DNA of 64,000 nt from Aequorivita iocasae (lineage in GTDB: Bacteria > Bacteroidota > Bacteroidia > Flavobacteriales > Flavobacteriaceae): NCBI RefSeq assembly GCF_016757735.1, contig NZ_CP068439.1:868001-932000 (forward strand), read 5' to 3'. Made by a program: the position numbers and the translations under genes. The notes below the pieces were generated by a model. The model did no database searches. It saw only the letters and a list, made by a program, of their open reading frames with translations, and was not told the DNA's origin. Positions within the stretch are counted from its first letter, which is position 1. Every line of letters starts with the position of its first letter. This document shows positions 4,479 to 25,894 of the stretch, one piece after another.

Positions 4479-5402
4479 TTGAAAAAACTCCTACTTCTCA
4501 CTTTCCTATTTTCTTTTAGTCTTTCTGCACAGGAATATGTAGATCTTTTTCGCGTTGGCTACGGACAAACGTTCAACAATGATTTTGAAGGAACCGACAG
4601 TAGTACTTATGTGAAGTTTTTCGATGTGGGTTTCACGTTTCCGGTGGTGCTTAATGAAAATCACGCCTTGATTACTGGAGCAGATTTCAGTAGAAACAAT
4701 CTGCAACTTTTCCCCGAGGCTGAATATACCAGTTTGTACAGCACAAACTTAAAGCTGGGCTTAGCTTCCACTTGGTCTGAAAAATGGAGCAGTACTATTG
4801 TTCTGCTACCAAAAATAGCTTCAGATTATAAAAATATTTCGGGAAATGATTTTTATTTGGGTGGCTTCGCTTTGCTAAAACTGAAGAAAAATGAAAATCT
4901 TAAATACCGCTTTGGCGTGTATGCCTCACAAGAGGCTTTCGGCCTTTTTACTACTCCAATTTTAGGCTGGTACTACTTGAGTCCAAACAAACGCTTTGAA
5001 ATGGACATGAGCTTACCTATTTCAGCAGATATTAGTTATAACCTTGGCATCACTACCGTTGGGATGGACTATTTTGGCATTGGACGAAGCTATAAGGTGC
5101 ACTACGAAAATCTTTCCACGCTTTATGCTGACCTCAGCTCTTTGGAATTTGCAGGCTATCTGCAGTTTAATACTTTGGAAGAAAGTGTTTTGCTGCGCGC
5201 AAAGCTGGGCTATTCCAGCAATAATTATGAAATGTATGCTGATGGGGAAAAAATGGATTTGGGCGTTTCCGCTTTTAGTTTTGGTGATAACCGAACCCAG
5301 TTGAATCCTTCACTAAACGGCGGAGTTTTTTTTAAATTGGAAGCAATTTATAGATTTCATATCAAGAAAAAATCTGAAACTGATACGCCTGTTTCAAATT
5401 AA
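4479..5402 (+). CDS. DUF6268-like outer-membrane protein
   Basis: Predicted secreted or outer-membrane protein of 307 aa. It has a clean signal peptide (MKKLLLLTFLFSFSLSAQ) and then alternating aromatic/polar strands typical of a beta-barrel. Overall it resembles the flavobacterial DUF6268 family; this is from memory of the pattern. The start is a TTG at 4479, chosen because it restores a complete signal peptide immediately after the MKK start and no ATG is available between the upstream stop and the signal sequence. It follows the aminotransferase by 15 bases. Function unknown. Confidence 0.75.
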   Translation: MKKLLLLTFLFSFSLSAQEYVDLFRVGYGQTFNNDFEGTDSSTYVKFFDVGFTFPVVLNENHALITGADFSRNNLQLFPEAEYTSLYSTNLKLGLASTWSEKWSSTIVLLPKIASDYKNISGNDFYLGGFALLKLKKNENLKYRFGVYASQEAFGLFTTPILGWYYLSPNKRFEMDMSLPISADISYNLGITTVGMDYFGIGRSYKVHYENLSTLYADLSSLEFAGYLQFNTLEESVLLRAKLGYSSNNYEMYADGEKMDLGVSAFSFGDNRTQLNPSLNGGVFFKLEAIYRFHIKKKSETDTPVSN

Positions 5403-18050: not shown

Positions 18051-19619
18051 ATGAAGTTTATTTTTCCCACTAAAACCGCGGCACTCCTACTATTCCTTTC
18101 CTTTACCATTTCTGCCCATTGCCAAGTATTGACCCCTTCGCAAATTGACAGTTTGGTTCAAAAAACGATGAAAACCTTTGATGTACCCGGTATGGCGGTA
18201 TCTGTTTTAAAGGACGGTAAAATCTATCATAAAAACACGTATGGTGTACGTTCCATAAAAACAAATGCCGAAGTGAACGAGAACACCCTTTTTGGCGTAG
18301 CTTCAAACACCAAAGCTTTTACCACCGCCGCGCTGGCGCAGCTAATAGACCAAGGCAAAATAACCTGGGACACGAAGGTAACCGATGTTATTCCAGAATT
18401 TAAACTGCACGACCCATACGTAACCGCCGAATTTACGGTACGCGATCTGGTAACCCACCGCAGTGGTCTGGGCTTGGGCGCGGGTGATTTAATGATTTTT
18501 CCCGCCAATAACACCACCACCAAAGCCGAAATGATCCACAACCTTAGGTACCTAAAACCAGTTTCATCCTTCCGATCAAAGTTTGATTATGACAACCTGC
18601 TTTATATTGTAGCAGGCGAAATTGTAGCCCGGGTGTCTGGTAAAAGCTATGATGATTATATTGCCGATAATTTTTTCAAGCCTTTGGGGATGGACCGTTC
18701 CCTGCTTTCCATACCTGCCATTGCAGCAGATAACAACCGCATTGATGGCCATGCGCCCGTAAACGGAAAACTGCAAATTACGGGCAATACTTTTACCCAA
18801 TTGGCCACCCCCGCCGGTGGTATTTATGCCTCCATCAATGATATGAGCACTTGGGCACAGGCACAACTGAACAAAGGAAAATATGGCGAAAAACTTAAGG
18901 ACAGCCTTTTTAGTGAAAGAATACACCACGAAATGTGGACGCCACAAACCCTATTGCGTACTGGTAGCGGCCCTTACAACACACACTTTTTGGCCTATGG
19001 GCTAGGTTGGTTTTTAAGCGATGTAAACGGTTATTTTCAGGTTACCCACACCGGCGGTCTGCTGGGCATTGTGAGCCAAGTAACCCTAATACCGGAGCTA
19101 GACCTTGGCATCATTGTGCTTACCAACCAGCAAAGTGGTTCGGCGTTTAATGCTATTACCAATTCCATTAAGGATGGCTATTTTAATATTAAAGGAGAAG
19201 ACAGGATAAAACAATATAACGAGCGCCGCTTGGCGGGCGAACGGGAAGAAGACAGCATTGTAAAAGCACTGGAGGCTGCCCTGCAAAAACAGCTAACTAG
19301 CAAAGCGCCCAAACCAGATATTAATACTGTAATGGGCACTTACCAAGACCCTTGGTTTGGAAAAGTAACCATAACCAACCAAAACGGAGACCTACGGTTT
19401 AAAGCTGAAAAATCATTGGATTTAGTGGGAACGATGACCTTTTATAAGGGCACGACCTATGTGGTACGATGGGACGATGCCTCTTTAAAGGCCGATGCTT
19501 TTGTAAACTTTTCATTTGATACCGAAGGGAGGGCCAAAGGGTTTGCTATGACCGCTATCTCACCTTTGACTGATTTTAGTTATGACTATCAGGATTTGGA
19601 GTTTGAGAGGGTGAAGTGA
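18051..19619 (+). CDS. exported serine hydrolase, class C beta-lactamase fold, DUF3471 tail
   Basis: A 522-residue envelope protein with a signal peptide (1-24). The beta-lactamase/esterase domain has Ser85-x-x-Lys88 (ASNTK), Tyr180-Asp-Asn182 (YDN) and an HTGG box near residue 330, so the catalytic set is complete. The C-terminal ~100 residues (GTYQDPWFGKVTITNQNGDLRF onward) match the DUF3471-type beta domain often attached to such hydrolases. The substrate could be D-amino-acid peptides or esters. Antibiotic resistance should not be assumed. It is the last core gene before the accessory cassettes. Confidence 0.85.
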   Translation: MKFIFPTKTAALLLFLSFTISAHCQVLTPSQIDSLVQKTMKTFDVPGMAVSVLKDGKIYHKNTYGVRSIKTNAEVNENTLFGVASNTKAFTTAALAQLIDQGKITWDTKVTDVIPEFKLHDPYVTAEFTVRDLVTHRSGLGLGAGDLMIFPANNTTTKAEMIHNLRYLKPVSSFRSKFDYDNLLYIVAGEIVARVSGKSYDDYIADNFFKPLGMDRSLLSIPAIAADNNRIDGHAPVNGKLQITGNTFTQLATPAGGIYASINDMSTWAQAQLNKGKYGEKLKDSLFSERIHHEMWTPQTLLRTGSGPYNTHFLAYGLGWFLSDVNGYFQVTHTGGLLGIVSQVTLIPELDLGIIVLTNQQSGSAFNAITNSIKDGYFNIKGEDRIKQYNERRLAGEREEDSIVKALEAALQKQLTSKAPKPDINTVMGTYQDPWFGKVTITNQNGDLRFKAEKSLDLVGTMTFYKGTTYVVRWDDASLKADAFVNFSFDTEGRAKGFAMTAISPLTDFSYDYQDLEFERVK

Positions 19620-19690
19620 GGGGATGGCCTATGATGAGAAATTTATATCGAAATTTTAGAAAAAAGGTTAGGTTTTTAACTTAGATCTTT

Positions 19691-19700
19691 GTTGGGCACA
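19691..19700 (-). repeat. cassette end sequence (R''-like), distal end of nuclease/ATPase cassette
   Basis: GTTGGGCACA on the plus strand, four bases past the stop of the ATPase gene. It is the exact inverse of TGTGCCCAAC at 22539-22548, so the two-gene unit is framed by a 10-bp inverted repeat. Read on the gene strand it is TGTGCCCAAC, fitting the integron R'' consensus RYYYAAC. No long palindrome follows it, so this end looks truncated. Confidence 0.6.
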
Positions 19701-19704
19701 GTAT

Positions 19705-21399
19705 TTATTCCCAAAGTTCACTTAATTTACTAATCATTTCTTCGTGCACATTATCATATTCCGATTTTTGTAGCAAACTATATTTTTCGGTTAGTGTAAT
19801 AGTTTTACATTTAAAATCAACTCCATAAGTTTCAGCAAGCCCTAATATCAATTGACTGTCTTTCGGTTGATTTTCTTGAATAAACTTCATTATTTTATCA
19901 ATGTGTTCAACGTCTTGGTCTTGTTGATTTGGTGAGTCAACAATTAAAGGGAAATATGTTGATGAAGAAAACTTTTTCATCAAATGAAAGAACGTAAAGT
20001 AGTAAGCTATTAGAGCTCTTGGTCTAGAACTTCCAGTCTCTTTAGATTCAATTTTTGAAGTGATTGGCTTATATTCATCTTCTGTCAAAGAATGAACGTC
20101 CAGTTTCTTTAGAAAAGACGTTAACTTGGTTCTATAATAACCTACTATTTCATCCTTTCTTTTTTTACTTTCAAATTCTTTTAGTTTTTTCTCTAATTTC
20201 TCTTTTTCCAAAGTGTTCTCGACAAGTGTTTTATGTAGTGCATCGTACCTGTCCGTAAAAATTGATTTTATTTGATTTTTCCCAGAACTTTCTATTACAT
20301 CTTTGAGTTTGAGATTGCCTTTTTTCTCTTGAAGAATTTTATCTATTTTATTTACCTCGCTTAATGTGGAATTTAATTTTTTGTTTTCAAACTCTATTTT
20401 ATCCTCAATTTCTTTGACTTCTTTTTTTAATTCTAGAAGCAAGTCTTTACTCTTTTGTTCATCTTGTGCTATTTCAAATCTTTCGGCAAAGGAATTTTCA
20501 TATTCTGCTCCGCAAGTTGGACAACCAATTACCTCTGGTAATTTTTCCGATGCAAATTCTAAATCTTTATGACTTTCTAAAACTGCTTGTTTTACAATAT
20601 TTATTTGTGCGTCATAAGAAGCCTTTAGATGATATAAATCGTGTAAATCAGACTTTAAGGATTCTTCCTTCTTTTTTAGCGATTCTAATTCTGTTAGTAA
20701 AGCTGTTATTTCTTTTTTAAATTCATCAATATTTATATTGAAATTTGTTTGAGATAATTTGTTCTTTACGTCCTCTAGTATTTTTCCAGTTAGTTTTTGC
20801 TCTTTATCAGTTTCTTCAATTGCCTTTAGATAGATGTCAATTTCTTTTTTAGTCTCGTAATACTTGTTAGGACGAATACCTGAATGATAAAAAATACATT
20901 GATTACGATAACTTTTTATTTGCTGTAATGATTTAAAAGAAGACCAACTTTTACTCCAACTTTCATCTTGGTCTACATAATATGGAAGTAATAAATATGC
21001 AGGTGGTGGAACGATAAAACCACTATTTTGAGATTGAAATAATGGGTTAAAATCAAATAATTTACTAAGGAAAGGTCCAAGTTCCTTTGTTACAGAATCA
21101 AATATTCCTAAGTTGACACCATTTGAATCATAGATTGAAAAGCGTTTTCCATCTCTTAGAATTTGAAATTTATCTCCATCTAATTCAAACTTTACAAGTG
21201 AGGCAACATTTGCATTTTTAAATTTAGAATTTAAAATAGGTTCTGCTCCAAAAGTCCTGTAAATACTCTTAATTAAAGAGGATTTACCAGTATGGTTTTT
21301 ACCGTAAATTAAAGTTCTATGTTTATCGAAACTAACCCTTTTTGCTTTTTTCTCTTTTTGAGACAGCAATAGCATTTCCGATATGTATAATTTTTTCAT
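19705..21399 (-). CDS. SMC/Rad50-like ATPase with zinc-hook motif (LmuB-like)
   Basis: A 564-residue ABC-type ATPase. The Walker A is G33-KNHTGKS40. A long coiled coil (about 180-430) is interrupted by C293-PTC296-GAEY, a zinc-hook-type CxxC. A signature-like region, TGSSRPRALIAYYF, lies at 455-468, and Walker B FPLIVDSP (Asp488) is followed by a D-loop-like NQQDQD. This split-ATPase layout is that of Rad50/SMC proteins and of the ATPases in Lamassu and ABC-3C defence systems (DUF3732-like). It follows the DUF4297 nuclease by 44 bases on the same strand, inside a tightly bounded cassette. Inferred role: sensing aberrant DNA ends and licensing the nuclease. Confidence 0.8.
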   Translation of the reverse strand: MKKLYISEMLLLSQKEKKAKRVSFDKHRTLIYGKNHTGKSSLIKSIYRTFGAEPILNSKFKNANVASLVKFELDGDKFQILRDGKRFSIYDSNGVNLGIFDSVTKELGPFLSKLFDFNPLFQSQNSGFIVPPPAYLLLPYYVDQDESWSKSWSSFKSLQQIKSYRNQCIFYHSGIRPNKYYETKKEIDIYLKAIEETDKEQKLTGKILEDVKNKLSQTNFNINIDEFKKEITALLTELESLKKKEESLKSDLHDLYHLKASYDAQINIVKQAVLESHKDLEFASEKLPEVIGCPTCGAEYENSFAERFEIAQDEQKSKDLLLELKKEVKEIEDKIEFENKKLNSTLSEVNKIDKILQEKKGNLKLKDVIESSGKNQIKSIFTDRYDALHKTLVENTLEKEKLEKKLKEFESKKRKDEIVGYYRTKLTSFLKKLDVHSLTEDEYKPITSKIESKETGSSRPRALIAYYFTFFHLMKKFSSSTYFPLIVDSPNQQDQDVEHIDKIMKFIQENQPKDSQLILGLAETYGVDFKCKTITLTEKYSLLQKSEYDNVHEEMISKLSELWE

Positions 21400-21443
21400 T
21401 CTTTTTTACTCTTAAATTTCTAACGAGTCTTTTTAAATTACCT

Positions 21444-22532
21444 TTATTTTTCATTGATAACTTTAATTACGAGACATTTTATAAAGTAATCATCGTATAT
21501 ATCTGATGACACCTTTGAAAAGCAATGGTTTATTATTTTTAAAAGGTTACTTGAATCATCTATTGCACCAATTGATAATTCATTGTCGTAAACTGATTCA
21601 ATGTCTTTTATTAATTTTTCTAGAGGAATTTTATTCGTGTCCTTTATTAATGTTGCGGTTATATCTCTCCAATATTTTTTATATTTTATTAACTCAATAT
21701 GTCCAATGCCACAAGATTCCAAAGAAGCCTTAATTTCATCCCATTCTTGTTCTACACTTTTGTAAAGTCCAGCTTTCTCGAGAAACTCAACAAATTGACG
21801 TTTTGATATTCCTTTTATATCTATTAGTTCATCCAGATTGGAAATACTTTTATCTCCGAAGGTATTTTCTGTTTGACGAGAAACTTCGTTGAATACTTGT
21901 TTGTAAGCTAATTCGGGATTAATACTATTCTCTGGATTAATTCTGTTAATCAATTTACTTAATTCTCCCAGACAATGTGTTGAGCTATCTTTGTTGCTTA
22001 GCTTAGTTACGTGAAAACTTGTTAATTCTCCAAACAGAGTATTGGCAGTTATCTTATGTTCGCTTTTTATCGAGTCCTCAAATTCTTTGAAAATTGATTT
22101 TTCTAGTTCTTTTGCTTTTATTTTAGACCTTTTTAAGGATTCTTCTCCATTTGTCAACTGTTTAAAACTGAAGCTGGCATTTGAAATAAAATTTAAAGAA
22201 TTTGTATTTTTAGTAAAGTTTATTTTGTTTAAATATAGTTTTCCTGTTATTGATAGTTTATCTTTTTCTTTTTTGGTTAAGGCTTTGACAGTCCAATTTC
22301 CGGAATCCTTTGATTTAATTTGATAGAAATCGATTTTATTTGGATTGGTTTCCGAATCCAAAACAACTAAATCATCGTGAAAATCAAATAGAAAAACATA
22401 ATCATCACTTTTCTCGTGAACTGTCAATAATAAATAAAGAGATAGGTCTTTTTGAAAGGTATATTTTCGGGCAGTTTTGCTACCTGATTCCTCTCTTGGT
22501 TTTAGATTTATTATTTCTTGTTCTAAGTTCAT
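21444..22532 (-). CDS. DUF4297 / Cap4-type nuclease, putative defence effector (LmuA-like)
   Basis: A 362-residue protein. The N-terminal ~80 residues carry a PD-(D/E)xK-like core: TARKYTFQKDLSLYLLL, then FDFHDDLVVLD (Asp53/54) and FYQIKSKD (Gln71-x-Lys73), the D...QxK pattern of DUF4297/Cap4 dsDNA endonucleases. The remainder is helical and probably binds the partner ATPase. The ATG lies only six bases inside the cassette end sequence, so its promoter must be in the 139-bp palindrome or further upstream. Codon use is AT-rich. Best reading: effector of a Lamassu/ABC-3C-like anti-phage or anti-plasmid system. No third (middle) component gene is present. Confidence 0.75.
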   Translation of the reverse strand: MNLEQEIINLKPREESGSKTARKYTFQKDLSLYLLLTVHEKSDDYVFLFDFHDDLVVLDSETNPNKIDFYQIKSKDSGNWTVKALTKKEKDKLSITGKLYLNKINFTKNTNSLNFISNASFSFKQLTNGEESLKRSKIKAKELEKSIFKEFEDSIKSEHKITANTLFGELTSFHVTKLSNKDSSTHCLGELSKLINRINPENSINPELAYKQVFNEVSRQTENTFGDKSISNLDELIDIKGISKRQFVEFLEKAGLYKSVEQEWDEIKASLESCGIGHIELIKYKKYWRDITATLIKDTNKIPLEKLIKDIESVYDNELSIGAIDDSSNLLKIINHCFSKVSSDIYDDYFIKCLVIKVINEK

Positions 22533-22538
22533 TTATAT

Positions 22539-22677
22539 TGTGCCCAACGTTTGGTGTATGGTTAGTTGCGTGGTTCGCAACTAATTTAGTAAACAAATAC
22601 TTGCCAGAGGAAATTCCGAAGGAATTTTCCAGATAAACACTTGCTAAAGCAATTAATTATACACACTGTTGTAGCAC
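22539..22677 (-). repeat. attC-like 139-bp imperfect palindrome between two cassettes
   Basis: On the minus strand this runs from GTGCTACAAC to GTTGGGCACA. The arms pair well: GTGTATGGTTAGTTGC (22554-22569) against GCAATTAATTATACAC (22649-22664), 13 of 16 positions. The centre is a hairpin, GGAAATTCC / GGAATTTTCC (22609-22630), with a one-base bulge. The gene-strand 3' end GTTGGGC fits the integron R' consensus GTTRRRY. The length falls in the attC range. A small separate stem, AGTTGCG / CGCAACT, lies at 22564-22582. No integrase gene is in the window. Confidence 0.6.
22668..22677 (-). repeat. cassette end sequence of the membrane-protein cassette
   Basis: GTTGTAGCAC on the plus strand, four bases past the stop of the 146-residue gene. 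It is the exact inverse of GTGCTACAAC at 23125-23134 on the other side of that gene. Thus each cassette has its own private matched pair of ends, as integron R'/R'' sequences do. Confidence 0.55.
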
Positions 22678-22681
22678 GTAT

Positions 22682-23122
22682 TTATTTATATTTTTTAATG
22701 AGTAAAAAGTTCCGTTCGCAATCTATGGTAGATTGATAGTAATTCATTTTGAAATTGTCGTGAGTAAATTCCAATCTCCAATCAACTGCTCCAAAATTCA
22801 CGAACGAAATAAATAATGACCAAGCAAAAATCAACCAGCCAAAAACAACAATTAGCTTTTTTGGCAGTTTTCCTTTAATCTTATCCACGAGTAAAACAAT
22901 TCCGCCAATTATTATTGTCCAAAATATTAAATTTCCTAAAAAGCCGAATAGATAAATATCTCCGGACATTGAATTAACCCAAGTTGTGTCAGTTTCTTGA
23001 ACGAATGGAAATCCGTAAAATTTTGGTCCACGTTCGGGATAATCACAAACATATTCAAAAGTCAGATATTCATCCGTAATAAATCCGAGTGCTGTTATTA
23101 TCGAGAATATGAGTTTTTTCAT
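22682..23122 (-). CDS. small multi-span membrane protein in a cassette, function unknown
   Basis: A 146-residue protein from the ATG at 23122 (MKKLIFSIITALGFITDEY). A longer frame back to 23227 would run through the cassette end sequence and is rejected. Hydrophobic segments are near 3-15, 58-80 and 88-110, with a short tryptophan-containing tail. No recognisable domain. It fills its cassette almost exactly: its start is two bases from GTGCTACAAC and its stop four bases from GTTGTAGCAC. I do not recognise the family. Confidence 0.65.
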   Translation of the reverse strand: MKKLIFSIITALGFITDEYLTFEYVCDYPERGPKFYGFPFVQETDTTWVNSMSGDIYLFGFLGNLIFWTIIIGGIVLLVDKIKGKLPKKLIVVFGWLIFAWSLFISFVNFGAVDWRLEFTHDNFKMNYYQSTIDCERNFLLIKKYK

Positions 23123-23124
23123 AT

Positions 23125-23134
23125 GTGCTACAAC
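23125..23134 (+). repeat. cassette end sequence, proximal end of the membrane-protein cassette
   Basis: GTGCTACAAC, two bases before the start of the membrane-protein gene; matched inversely by 22668-22677. Confidence 0.55.
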
Positions 23135-23165
23135 ATGTTTATATACGCATGTTTTTAAAATCTTA

Positions 23166-23196
23166 TTGCTGCTATCCCGCACATGTGCGCCACAGC
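23166..23196 (-). terminator. hairpin after the HTH regulator gene
   Basis: TGCTG...CAGCA arms around the perfect core CGCACATGTGCG, followed on the minus strand by AATAAGATTTTA. It lies about 20 bases past the regulator stop. Either a weak terminator or part of the cassette boundary. Confidence 0.4.
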
Positions 23197-23216
23197 ATGC
23201 CCCCCAAATATAAAGT

Positions 23217-23567
23217 TTATTTCCCAATCACCTGCATCAAGGTTTCCACCTTCGTTTTCAATAATTTGTTTTCCTCCTCCAGCGCGGCAATGCGCTCCTG
23301 TAGGGGCAGCGTGGGGTCTGGGGCGTTGGTGGTAAAGTGTGCCGGGAGCTGGGCGGCGAGGTCCATAAAAAAGTTGTGCCGCATCGCCACACAAAGTTCC
23401 CAAAGTATCCGTATTTGAATGCTGGGTTTGCCCAAAATCTTTTGGAGATTCTGTGGTTTGCGGTTCGCGTTTCTGGAAAGGGCAGCCTTAGAAATCCGGC
23501 GCCTTTTTATTCTGTTCTTTAGCATTTGCCCTATATCTGGACACGCTGTGGTTTCTGGTGTTTTCAT
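23217..23567 (-). CDS. small HTH DNA-binding protein with C-terminal coiled coil
   Basis: A 116-residue protein from the ATG at 23567. An upstream ATG at 23603 lies inside the first unit of the repeat array, so the shorter start is preferred. The N-terminal region IGQMLKNRIKRRRISKAALSRNANRKPQNLQKIL looks like a helix-turn-helix (XRE-like), and a C-terminal leucine-zipper-like helix (LQERIAALEEENKLLKTKVETL) suggests dimerisation. A long degenerate repeat array sits directly upstream, which suggests that it binds there and controls itself. The target genes are unknown. Confidence 0.75.
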   Translation of the reverse strand: MKTPETTACPDIGQMLKNRIKRRRISKAALSRNANRKPQNLQKILGKPSIQIRILWELCVAMRHNFFMDLAAQLPAHFTTNAPDPTLPLQERIAALEEENKLLKTKVETLMQVIGK

Positions 23568-23593
23568 AGGTATTCTGTAATGTTTGTTTTTTT

Positions 23594-23829
23594 TATAACC
23601 CATTTGGATTACTTTATACCCTAAATGGTTTATTTATATCTCCAAAATGGTTATTTATATAACCGCTTTGGATTATTTTATAAATCAAATGGATTATTTA
23701 TATATCCAAAAAAGCTATCCTTATAAACTTAATGTTGTTATTTATAATCTAAATGGGTTAGCTATATAAGCCATTCGTATTATTTTATACTCCTTTTTGG
23801 TGCTATTTATAACCCAAAAGGGTTATAAA
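23594..23829. repeat. eleven degenerate ~21-bp repeats, probable operator array
   Basis: Units begin TATA at 23594, 23615, 23635, 23656, 23679, 23699, 23722, 23743, 23763, 23786 and 23808, spaced 20-23 bases (mean 21.4). The consensus is about TATAaCCcaaatGGaTTATT, an inverted repeat within each unit. The last unit, TATAACCCAAAAGGGTTATA, is an almost perfect dyad. The spacing is two helical turns, so all sites face one side of the DNA. The array fills the gap between the regulator gene and the 175-residue gene; there is no room for a gene. Confidence 0.7.
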
Positions 23830-23848
23830 CGAGGTTGGCTTTGCGTCC

Positions 23849-23877
23849 AAAAAAACGGTCCTAAAAGACCGTCCTTT
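23849..23877 (-). terminator. intrinsic terminator after the 175-residue gene
   Basis: Stem ACGGTC / GACCGT with a six-base loop. On the minus strand it is followed by TTTTTTT. Confidence 0.75.
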
Positions 23878-23895
23878 TTGCAAAGTGGGATTTTT

Positions 23896-24390
23896 TTACA
23901 TCCCCTCCTCGCTTGGATCGGGCTGCCTGCTGCCGCCCTGCCCCGTAAAACGCTCGCGCATCAGTTCGTAACCCGCACGTGCATCTTCGCTACCTGCCTT
24001 GCTCATTGCTTCATAGATAGTATAGATGGCAAGGGCATAGGTGTATGCCTCGTGCGCCGCAATACGGGCCAGATCATCAAGCTTGCGCTGTAGGGCCTTG
24101 GTACGTTCGCTTACCGTCTGTATCTGCTCAAACAGGTCGTAGTCGTTCTGCAGGGTGTTAAGCTGAAAGGTTGCGGGCAGCACACTGGCGCCGCTGCCGC
24201 GCAGTACGTTAAGCACGATTTCTACAAACACGCGGTTGTCCACGTCCATCCCGGTATAACGACGGCGTTGGTCGTCGTTTAGGGCGCCCTCTGGTAGGGC
24301 TGCCATAAAATCGTTAAGGGCTGTGAGGGCAGTGGTTAGCACTGCGGGGTCTAAGACTACGTTTAGTCTGTTTTCTGATAAATTTGCCAT
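23896..24390 (-). CDS. conserved hypothetical protein (MANLSENRL family)
   Basis: About 164 residues from the ATG at 24390 (MANLSENRLNVVLDPAVL); an 11-residue upstream extension is possible. Mostly helical: two long amphipathic segments (about 85-125 and 125-150) separated by an AAHEAYTYALAIYTIYEA stretch, ending in a polar tail, FTGQGGSRQPDPSEEGM. I have an impression of similar proteins in other Bacteroidota but know no function. Its GC content is clearly higher than the adjacent cassettes and repeat array. It has its own terminator. Confidence 0.65.
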   Translation of the reverse strand: MANLSENRLNVVLDPAVLTTALTALNDFMAALPEGALNDDQRRRYTGMDVDNRVFVEIVLNVLRGSGASVLPATFQLNTLQNDYDLFEQIQTVSERTKALQRKLDDLARIAAHEAYTYALAIYTIYEAMSKAGSEDARAGYELMRERFTGQGGSRQPDPSEEGM

Positions 24391-24452
24391 AGCTAAATGG
24401 TTTTTAATGATTAATAATTCCAATTTTCGGAAAAAAACAAAAACCAGTCAAC

Positions 24453-24490
24453 GGGGGAAATCCCCCTTTTTTTTACAGGGTTTTTCCTGT
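24453..24490 (+). other. two short hairpins in a gene-free gap
   Basis: The gap 24391-24705 has no convincing gene. It contains GGGGG-AAAT-CCCCC followed by eight T (24453-24474) and ACAGG / CCTGT (24475-24490). The first has the form of a plus-strand terminator, although no plus-strand gene precedes it. Confidence 0.4.
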
Positions 24491-24705
24491 TTGAAAAACT
24501 CAACTAATTGATTTTCAATACTTTTATCCAAGACGAAATTTTGGCAAAAAAATAGCCCGAAAAAAAGTTGCTGGAAAAGGGTATTGGGGGTGAAAAAATG
24601 AATACGCAGCACCATATTCTTCCATTTTACTAAAAAATTCAAAAAATCGGGGGCTTTCTTTCTAGGTTTTAGTATTTTCATAAAAGGTTAAAAAAAATAG
24701 CTGTT

Positions 24706-25161
24706 ATGCAAACTTCAAAAAGACTGGACCAGGCCCTGCAAAAACTCTATACCGCCTTTCACAACAACACCCTAAACCCCGAGTGCTGCAAGCAATGCGC
24801 CGTGGGCAATATATGTGATAATACCGATAGCTGGAAGCACCTGAGCGATGGCCACGGCTCGTTGCAATTGAACTACGTGGGCCGCGTGCACGAAACCTTG
24901 GGCCGGCGGTTTAACGGCTACACCCCACTGGAACTTTTACAGATAGAGGCCGAATTTTTAAAGGGCTGCGGCTACACCCTGCCCCTGCACCATAAAAACG
25001 CAAGACCGAAAAACCCCACCGCCAAGGCTACCCTCTTTAAGGGGCTAAGTGCCGCCATTGCCTACCTCTGTGCGCTGGATGGTATTGCCAATGTAATGGA
25101 TATGCAGCAACTACTTGCTTATACGGAAGAACCAACCCCAGTGGCGGAAACGTTAGGCTAG
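24706..25161 (+). CDS. conserved cysteine-cluster protein, function unknown
   Basis: A 151-residue cytoplasmic protein. The N-terminal half has Cys27-Cys28, Cys31 and Cys37 (NPECCKQCAVGNICDN) plus WKHLSDGHGSLQLNYVGRVHE. A further GCGY (Cys87) lies in the middle. The cysteine spacing would suit metal or Fe-S binding, but this is inferred. From memory, close homologues in flavobacterial genomes are sometimes labelled Na(+)-translocating NADH-quinone reductase subunit F; the sequence lacks the ferredoxin and FAD/NADH domains of NqrF (about 400 aa), so that label is not supported. Confidence 0.75.
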   Translation: MQTSKRLDQALQKLYTAFHNNTLNPECCKQCAVGNICDNTDSWKHLSDGHGSLQLNYVGRVHETLGRRFNGYTPLELLQIEAEFLKGCGYTLPLHHKNARPKNPTAKATLFKGLSAAIAYLCALDGIANVMDMQQLLAYTEEPTPVAETLG

Positions 25162-25183
25162 GTATATATATAAAAACCGCTTT

Positions 25184-25894
25184 ATGGCGCAAAAGGATAT
25201 TTCCGAAGTTTCCGTTAGAAAAAGTAAAGCACCCCTTTATAGTTCTATCACCCTAATAATAGTATTGGTTATCTGCTACTTTGCCATTCCGCAGGTCAAC
25301 CAATTTTTAAACCAAGCTTGGGATGTGCTCACCAGTAATGATGAGGCACGCATCAAGAACTGGGTAAGCGATTTTGGGTGGATGGGCCCCGTGGTGATCA
25401 TTCTGGCTATGGTCGTGCAGATGTTCCTCTTAGTTATTCCCTCTGTACTATTAATGATTGTGGCAATACTGGCTTATGGCCCTATTTGGGGAAGCGTGAT
25501 TATTTTGATTGCCATATTTTGTGCCTCCTCCATTGGGTATTTTATAGGAAAGTATTTGAGTATAGAGGTTACGGCCCGCTTGCTGGGCAAAAAAACCACC
25601 CAAAAGATGACCGATTTTCTAGATGACTATGGGTTTTGGGCGGTGATGATTACGCGAATAAACCCCTTTCTCTCCAACGATGCCATTAGCTTTGTGGCAG
25701 GATTGCTACGAATGAATTACTTCAAGTTTATTACCGCTACCCTCATAGGCATAACCCCCCTAATATTACTGATAGCCTGGACGGGGCGCGATATAGACTC
25801 GCTTAAAACGAGCTTGCTCTGGGGCTCGCTGGTGAGCTTGGCGCTATTTGGCCTCTATATATGGTGGGACAAAAGACGAAATCATAAAAACTAA
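25184..25894 (+). CDS. TVP38/TMEM64 (VTT/DedA-like) membrane protein
   Basis: A 236-residue inner-membrane protein with about six hydrophobic segments. The family core is visible as ILAYGPIWGSVIILIAIFCASSIGYFIGKYLS, then FWAVMITRINPFLSNDAISFVAGLLRMNYFKF. In VTT proteins the G-x-x-x-G-Y-x-x-G-R and R-x-x-P blocks form the re-entrant core; here IGYFIGK and RINPFLSNDAIS match. Suggested roles of the family are lipid scrambling or membrane homeostasis. It starts 22 bases after the cysteine-cluster gene. Confidence 0.85.
   Translation: MAQKDISEVSVRKSKAPLYSSITLIIVLVICYFAIPQVNQFLNQAWDVLTSNDEARIKNWVSDFGWMGPVVIILAMVVQMFLLVIPSVLLMIVAILAYGPIWGSVIILIAIFCASSIGYFIGKYLSIEVTARLLGKKTTQKMTDFLDDYGFWAVMITRINPFLSNDAISFVAGLLRMNYFKFITATLIGITPLILLIAWTGRDIDSLKTSLLWGSLVSLALFGLYIWWDKRRNHKN

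Follow-up and report, generated by a model that had tools for sequence, protein, structure and literature searches.

A phased dyad array in Aequorivita varies and is exchanged together with the recognition region of an adjacent Cro-like protein: a candidate private lock and key

An array of phased dyads lies between two small genes

We analysed a stretch of 64,000 nucleotides of the chromosome of Aequorivita iocasae (contig NZ_CP068439.1, positions 868,001 to 932,000; hereafter the window, which is G000:C1:868001-932000 in our numbering, G000 being the genome that holds it). Our subject is an array of 11 degenerate dyad units situated upstream of a gene for a small protein with a helix-turn-helix (HTH) domain and a coiled coil. 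Read along the minus strand, the locus consists of a gene that we call gene A, a terminator-like hairpin, the 11 dyads, the HTH gene, a short box (TATATTTG) and cassette-like genes. The features at the array are listed here, with the units numbered from the HTH gene outward.

23896..24390, minus strand: gene A, 164 aa (MANLSENRLNVV...), predicted all-helical, no named family
23855..23872, minus strand: terminator-like hairpin separating the array from gene A (ACGGTCTTTTAGGACCGT with TTTTTTT after it), read from the sequence; a hairpin scan reports its plus-strand form
23593..23827, minus strand: dyad array of 11 degenerate units (independent matrix and chain fit, Tandem Repeats Finder, autocorrelation)
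23593-23613, 23614-23634, 23636-23656, 23657-23677, 23678-23698, 23700-23720: units 1-6
23722-23742, 23742-23762, 23764-23784, 23785-23805, 23807-23827: units 7-11
23217..23567, minus strand: HTH and coiled-coil gene, 116 aa (MKTPETTACPDIG...), with its ATG at 23567 and its stop codon ending at 23217

An independent fit of a position weight matrix (PWM) and a chain of units bears out the eleven phased dyads of about 21 bp that a preliminary description of this DNA had reported: the units have a consensus of about AATAAnCCAwTTGGnTTATAA and follow one another at fitted spacings of 22, 21, 22, 20, 22, 22, 21, 21, 22 and 21 bp (range 20-22, mean 21.4). Tandem Repeats Finder returned periods of 21 and 64 across 23586-23726, and the autocorrelation of the array at lag 21 stands 8.4 standard deviations over Markov shuffles. 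The dyad symmetry attributed to the units is evident in their PWM, whose palindromy (r = 0.74) was equalled by none of 300 column permutations; it is weaker unit by unit, where a mean complementarity of 0.47 compares with 0.38 ± 0.03 for shuffled units and is beaten by the top value (0.49) among 2000 shuffles. The units are contiguous and degenerate, without spacers, and were rightly set apart from a CRISPR array; we rejected that identity on these grounds and because a PADLOC scan of the six proteins around the array revealed no cas, its only matches being two Lamassu-type proteins described below.

When the 3.35 Mb genome was searched with TAAYCCAWWTKGRTTATA, 14 rows had at most two mismatches, 7 inside the array and 7 scattered (a near-palindrome may yield two rows per place, one on each strand), so that half of them sit in the array and the motif is no genome-wide repeat. 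At up to three mismatches the counts were 82 + 74, a slight excess over the 64 + 59 of a reversed-pattern control, and lone matches of this weak kind are uninformative because the genome count barely exceeds that of the control. The motif of a second G000 array gave 10 rows genome-wide, 9 of them within its own array.

Homologs favour ATG 23567 as the start of the HTH gene over the alternative ATG 23603, which falls, as had been noted, within the gene-proximal unit. The AlphaFold2 model of the protein (predicted local distance difference test, pLDDT, 85) has helices at residues 12-22, 27-33, 38-46, 52-62 and 66-72, the HTH helices thus covering about residues 12-72, and a final long helix at 86-114. 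By this model and by Foldseek, the domain has the five-helix Cro/C1-type (XRE) HTH fold; Foldseek returned 434 Cro at a TMt of 0.74 and C.Esp1396I at about 0.7, with E values of 0.03-0.12 and no match at E <= 0.001. In Pfam the window protein is below the curated cut-off (HTH_26, 17.2 bits versus 22), and at E <= 0.01 HTH_26 was matched by 17 and HTH_3 by 8 of 51 members of the family. We call the protein Cro-like on account of its predicted fold, which is near those of C.Esp1396I, HipB and 434 Cro, and assign it to no named subfamily; the last helix is a predicted coiled coil.

The sequence of the units follows the recognition region of the HTH protein

An array with a period of 21 or 22 bp lies upstream of 53 of the 55 distinct full-length relatives of the HTH gene, which answers the question of joint conservation that the preliminary description had raised, and upstream of 1 of 25 distant or partial matches, that one being a frameshifted member. 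The G000 chromosome carries four copies, at sites common to other species; the three G000 arrays besides that of the window are at the C1:2111091, 2238190 and 3308761 loci. Across the family, copy number and spacing stay within a narrow range and the sequences are wholly different.

We compared 50 arrays (1225 pairs; pairwise statistics that ignore kinship). Unit similarity was 0.85 where the recognition regions were at least 80% identical (13 pairs, range 0.57-0.99), and 0.34 where C-terminal identity was at least 0.75 and recognition identity below 0.35 (82 pairs), the null from column-permuted PWMs being 0.32 ± 0.07. Among pairs whose gene A identity was 65% or more, similarity was 0.41 when the recognition region was unlike (24 pairs) and 0.82 when it was shared (9 pairs); judging from these comparisons, gene A does not account for the co-variation of array and recognition region. 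From one relative to the next the units are thus hypervariable in sequence, and they follow the recognition region of the HTH protein.

Array and DNA-binding half are exchanged together at shared chromosomal sites

Several species have the module at the same chromosomal sites, and the genes that come after the HTH gene differ between them. At the window site, DNA identity between G000 and A. aquimaris is 0.85 and 0.95 in the flanks, 0.48 in gene A, 0.35 in the array and 0.37 in the N-terminal half of the HTH gene; it is 0.89 in the C-terminal half and 0.93 in the following 100 bases. A second site retains gene A (0.85), and there both the array (0.46) and the N-terminal half of the HTH gene (0.41) are unlike, and at a third site gene A, array and N-terminal half are common to the two genomes (0.97-0.98). 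Within A. aquimaris, gene A, array and HTH gene are alike between the first and second sites (0.95-0.99), and the sequences preceding gene A are dissimilar (0.54 and 0.30). The array and the DNA-binding half are therefore exchanged jointly, and a module can also be copied from one site to another. We regard this joint exchange, read from sequence, as the strongest evidence that the protein reads its array. With the layout kept and the repeats observed both to vary and to be exchanged with the DNA-reading half, the module suggests that bacterial chromosomes carry a private lock and key that can be swapped.

Gene A is accompanied by arrays in the absence of the HTH gene

The gene A product is modelled as all-helical (pLDDT 86) and has no match among Pfam or NCBIfam models, nor in a fold search of the PDB. 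Gene A is present in 25 of 345 genomes sampled across the phylum Bacteroidota. Of 52 HTH loci with an array that were checked, 32 have a gene A no more than 1.3 kb upstream; the other 20 are without it within that distance, some of them because the contig or stretch ends there. A survey of 55 distinct gene A loci, with the HTH gene sought within 1 kb, found an array at all 32 loci that have the HTH gene and at 17 of the 23 that do not, some of the latter with a period of 42 or 43. The same test was passed by 4 of 84 control regions 3' of other open reading frames (ORFs) in gene A loci; among these passes L049 and L101 resemble 7-bp microsatellites and L038 resembles a 13-bp repeat.

The gene A arrays without the HTH gene differ among themselves and include both AT-rich and GC-rich forms (GC-rich at L155/L171). 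Eleven of 16 gene A genomes checked have no member of the HTH family at E <= 1e-6, and two more have HTH-domain matches only. No gene other than gene A is common to most of the loci that lack the HTH gene (it is in 19 of 20 wide loci, among them one picked for its HTH gene), and in two related species a gene A-only array is, by eye, strongly conserved though non-coding (L174/L175 alignment). Three HTH-less arrays were tested for recurrence; two of them adjoin gene A, and the third adjoins the gene of a 235-aa protein that matches no Pfam model above cut-off. Each has one counterpart elsewhere, which is again a 21-bp array and is flanked by convergent ORFs.

A 400-kb sample of genome G577 gave four periodic peaks, two of which resemble further arrays, one strong (0.79) and one weak (0.55). 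These G577 arrays (L226:15434-15741 and L215:13652-13806) lie directly upstream of genes for proteins of about 235 and 222 aa, helical by eye and without a Pfam match above cut-off, and the L226 array recurs behind a gene that looks dnaB-like by eye (L229, about 5040-5290). The 3' ends of the gene A arrays L167-L169, from three genomes of different families, have a common flank of the type AGTGGGAGGGGGTACTTC, in steps of about 21 bp by eye; it is also found beside the second array of G550 (L187).

A private operator array is the probable explanation

We think it probable that the neighbouring HTH protein has in the 11 dyads a private operator array, cooperatively bound and autoregulatory. Binding of the array by the protein is strongly indicated by the comparisons above; cooperativity and autorepression we infer. 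The protein would dimerise through its C-terminal coiled coil, and each dimer would read one dyad. A spacing of about 21 bp, or two helical turns, would let every dimer sit on the same side of the helix and lead to cooperative filling of the array, and the filled array would shut down the HTH gene's own promoter. Array and DNA-binding half would be inherited and exchanged as a single specificity unit, different islands in one genome would usually carry different lock-and-key pairs, and the conserved C-terminal half would retain a common function. The preliminary description had put forward a cooperative operator or nucleoprotein array as one of two readings; the co-occurrence in 53 of 55 relatives, the tracking of the recognition region and the joint swaps favour this, and its autoregulatory part is suggested by position only. 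The safest reading of the module is that of an autoregulator with its operator array, which is a known kind.

Several observations weigh against a private operator array. No promoter was located within the array, two full-length members have no significant array (L036, z 3.7; L069, z 0.3), and 30 of 51 arrays individually lack significant palindromy. The relation between units and recognition region is of a threshold type, resting on few close, partly related pairs in a purely pairwise comparison: the rank correlation across all 1225 pairs is weak (rho 0.14) because most pairs are unrelated, and L009 and L021 have a recognition identity of 0.92 with L013 yet reach no more than 0.57 in unit similarity. 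When 465 pairs were entered in a plain regression, the coefficient of gene A identity (0.31) was similar to that of recognition identity (0.27) because modules are often inherited whole. Moreover, arrays of the same design occur without the HTH gene, both beside gene A and between convergent genes. Because such arrays exist, autoregulation cannot fully account for the class, and those arrays that lack the HTH gene or come in pairs suggest an additional, structural role.

A structural role is at the centre of an explanation that we regard as rather unlikely, in which the array serves as an address or tether on the chromosome: a nucleoprotein resembling a centromere would mark, pair or position the locus with gene A as partner or bridge, autoregulation would be a by-product, and the private sequences might prevent cross-reaction between loci, by analogy with the ParR/parC families between plasmids. 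It would fit the linkage of gene A and array across Bacteroidota (32/32 with and 17/23 without the HTH gene), the recurrence of all three HTH-less arrays tested and the coexistence determined by specificity that is documented for ParR/parC (PMC9426499). It is harder to reconcile with the conserved context, in which no ParA, ParM or TubZ-type NTPase was recognised and the sole widely conserved neighbour, gene A, has no family or PDB fold match, or with the two HTH-linked G000 arrays tested, which show no second cluster among the matches listed. Among hand-assigned array pairs, 2 of 35 within genomes share a unit and 33 differ, compared with 6 and 487 of 493 between genomes; since between-genome pairs differ as well, these counts do not demonstrate that difference is selected within a cell. 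Gene A also figures in a second, improbable scheme: the array would first belong to gene A or another trans-acting binder, and the HTH gene, a later recruit in Flavobacteriales, would have captured it as a promoter. The arrays kept at gene A-only loci, the conserved L174/L175 array, the wide loci that have gene A alone in common and the 11 gene A genomes without an HTH family member all accord with this order of events, whereas loci with a like gene A and an unlike recognition region have unlike arrays, and 20 of 52 array-bearing HTH loci have no gene A nearby.

We give almost no credence to the iteron-like replication origin or plasmid remnant that had been the other reading of the preliminary description. 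Iterons are similar to the window array in unit length and number, and the array does lie upstream of a gene for a DNA-binding protein; however, the HTH protein and two gene A queries found no match in 72,556 plasmid records, the HTH protein and one gene A query found none in 50,697 phage records, and the protein is a Cro-like HTH. The four G000 copies are chromosomal, at sites that other species share, and no replication initiator was noticed among the listed neighbours, not all of which were identified. It is very improbable, too, that the array is a transcribed RNA element or a functionless simple satellite, and we rejected both. The unit dyads could make small hairpins, and the AT-rich genomes of this group hold 7-bp microsatellites that mimic a lag of 21; yet G.U pairs are not in excess of A.C among the dyad mismatches (0.66 versus 0.75 of expectation, 24 arrays), which disfavours an RNA helix, and positions 19000-25500 of the window have no Rfam match. 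The narrow copy number and spacing despite wholly different sequences, the frame-breaking 22-bp versions and the linkage to two gene families argue against either. In 400 kb sampled from G000, seven periodic peaks were by eye short microsatellites, mostly with 7-bp units, and no dyad array was recognised among them.

Two further identities were rejected. Coding heptad repeats (21 bp being 7 codons, with long frames by chance) are contradicted by the 22-bp arrays, which break the frame, and by a stop that the HTH frame meets within the window array. Phased A-tract curvature fails as a general principle because GC-rich arrays exist (L155/L171). Long intergenic 7-bp microsatellites (GTGAGTG, CAATTAA) that mimic a 21-bp periodicity were seen in G000 (L201, C1:2300001-2320000) and in other samples.

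Relation to known systems

The omega repeats of pSM19035 are doubly used, serving also as operators. The likeness of the window module to this omega-parS system lies in a contiguous repeat array bound, here putatively, by a small protein; pSM19035 differs in its ribbon-helix-helix protein, its 7-bp repeats, its plasmid-borne setting and its ParA ATPase partner. A stable ParB (omega)-parS complex needs four or more contiguous repeats (PMC9499535). ParR/parC site specificity decides coexistence in Clostridium perfringens families, and there each DNA-binding protein has a private cognate site, different families do not cross-bind and several can coexist in a cell (PMC9426499), much as proposed here. 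The window module differs from ParR/parC in being chromosomal, in its Cro-like HTH and coiled coil, in having no recognised NTPase neighbour and about ten dyads at 21 bp, and in the exchange of array and DNA-binding half at fixed chromosomal sites.

The Cro/C1 (XRE) autoregulators, the restriction-modification controller C.Esp1396I and HipB resemble the HTH protein in fold (Foldseek). Those proteins autoregulate from few operators at their own promoters; here there are about ten phased dyads, of a sequence specific to each member, together with gene A. Like an integron, the module heads variable genes, and both window cassettes have complementary ends like those of attC, but the HTH gene and gene A occupy the place expected of the integrase. 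The module is not a partition system as defined, an iteron replicon, a CRISPR array or an integron proper, and no published description of an array, HTH and gene A module was found in the literature searched, as judged by titles and abstract openings.

A broader interpretation, which we offer tentatively as possible though doubtful, is an addressing system of Bacteroidota in which hypervariable private arrays of about ten 21-bp units, beside small helical or coiled-coil proteins such as those of gene A and the HTH family and sometimes paired, would mark, tether or insulate loci, including cassette islands that carry defence genes. Array and DNA-reading domain would be swapped jointly as cassettes, and some genomes would have the same unit again in another array, located elsewhere between convergent genes. 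Should a structural role be shown, this phylum-wide class of arrays could be categorically new; if the arrays that are paired or lack the HTH gene do mean what they seem to, they would represent an unrecognised, sequence-specific organisation of the chromosome throughout Bacteroidota. The private operator array, for its part, would provide some 50 natural regulator and array pairs in which the recognition helix and a target repeated about ten-fold change together while the remainder of the protein is comparatively fixed, and from such a collection one could read the recognition code of Cro-type HTH proteins and draw repressor-operator pairs that are private to one another.

Cassette-like genes and other neighbours of the HTH gene

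Downstream of the HTH gene the window contains the following features.

23205..23212, minus strand: TATATTTG, a box just past the HTH stop that resembles the Bacteroidota -7 box
22668..23134, minus strand: first downstream cassette, opening with GTTGTAGCAC and closing with its complement GTGCTACAAC, integron-cassette-like
22682-23227 as listed, minus strand: ORF of the first cassette, 146 codons from its own ATG
19691..22548, minus strand: second cassette, opening with GTTGGGCACA and closing with TGTGCCCAAC
21444-22532 (LmuA) and 19705-21399 (LmuB), minus strand: Lamassu-type pair in the second cassette (PADLOC)

Compared with the Bacteroidota -7 box consensus, TATATTTG resembles a promoter and may serve the cassettes. 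The form TAnnTTTG occurs at most 70 bases past the HTH stop in 24 of 53 loci, and TATATTTG itself shortly past it in 17 of 29 Aequorivita loci by our own count. Both window cassettes have complementary core sites of the attC type (GTTGTAGCAC/GTGCTACAAC and GTTGGGCACA/TGTGCCCAAC), the ends of attC being named R'' and R'. The site between the cassettes folds as single-stranded DNA (z -3.3) and the stretch right after the HTH gene does not (z -0.2); in other loci complementary ends were found in 11 of 17 cases against 5 of 17 in the control, a rough test and a weak result. No integron integrase gene was found among the ORFs beside the window array, and TIGR02249 exceeded its cut-off in none of 39 genomes. 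We rejected an IntI-like platform, the matches being to generic tyrosine recombinases only and all 14 control genomes matching too.

Tyrosine recombinase genes adjoin the HTH gene in two Aequorivita genomes (L046, G014:C90:232-1041; L112, G001:C1:2507751-2508557), the Pfam check (Phage_integrase) covering L046 only. In the genomes of group f5 the upstream neighbours of the HTH gene resemble what we take to be an exosortase pair. A single contig (L122, G004:C1:39791-51096) has four HTH matches at intervals of 3-4 kb; they contain stops and are mostly C-terminal, as if old modules had been left over from repeated replacement.
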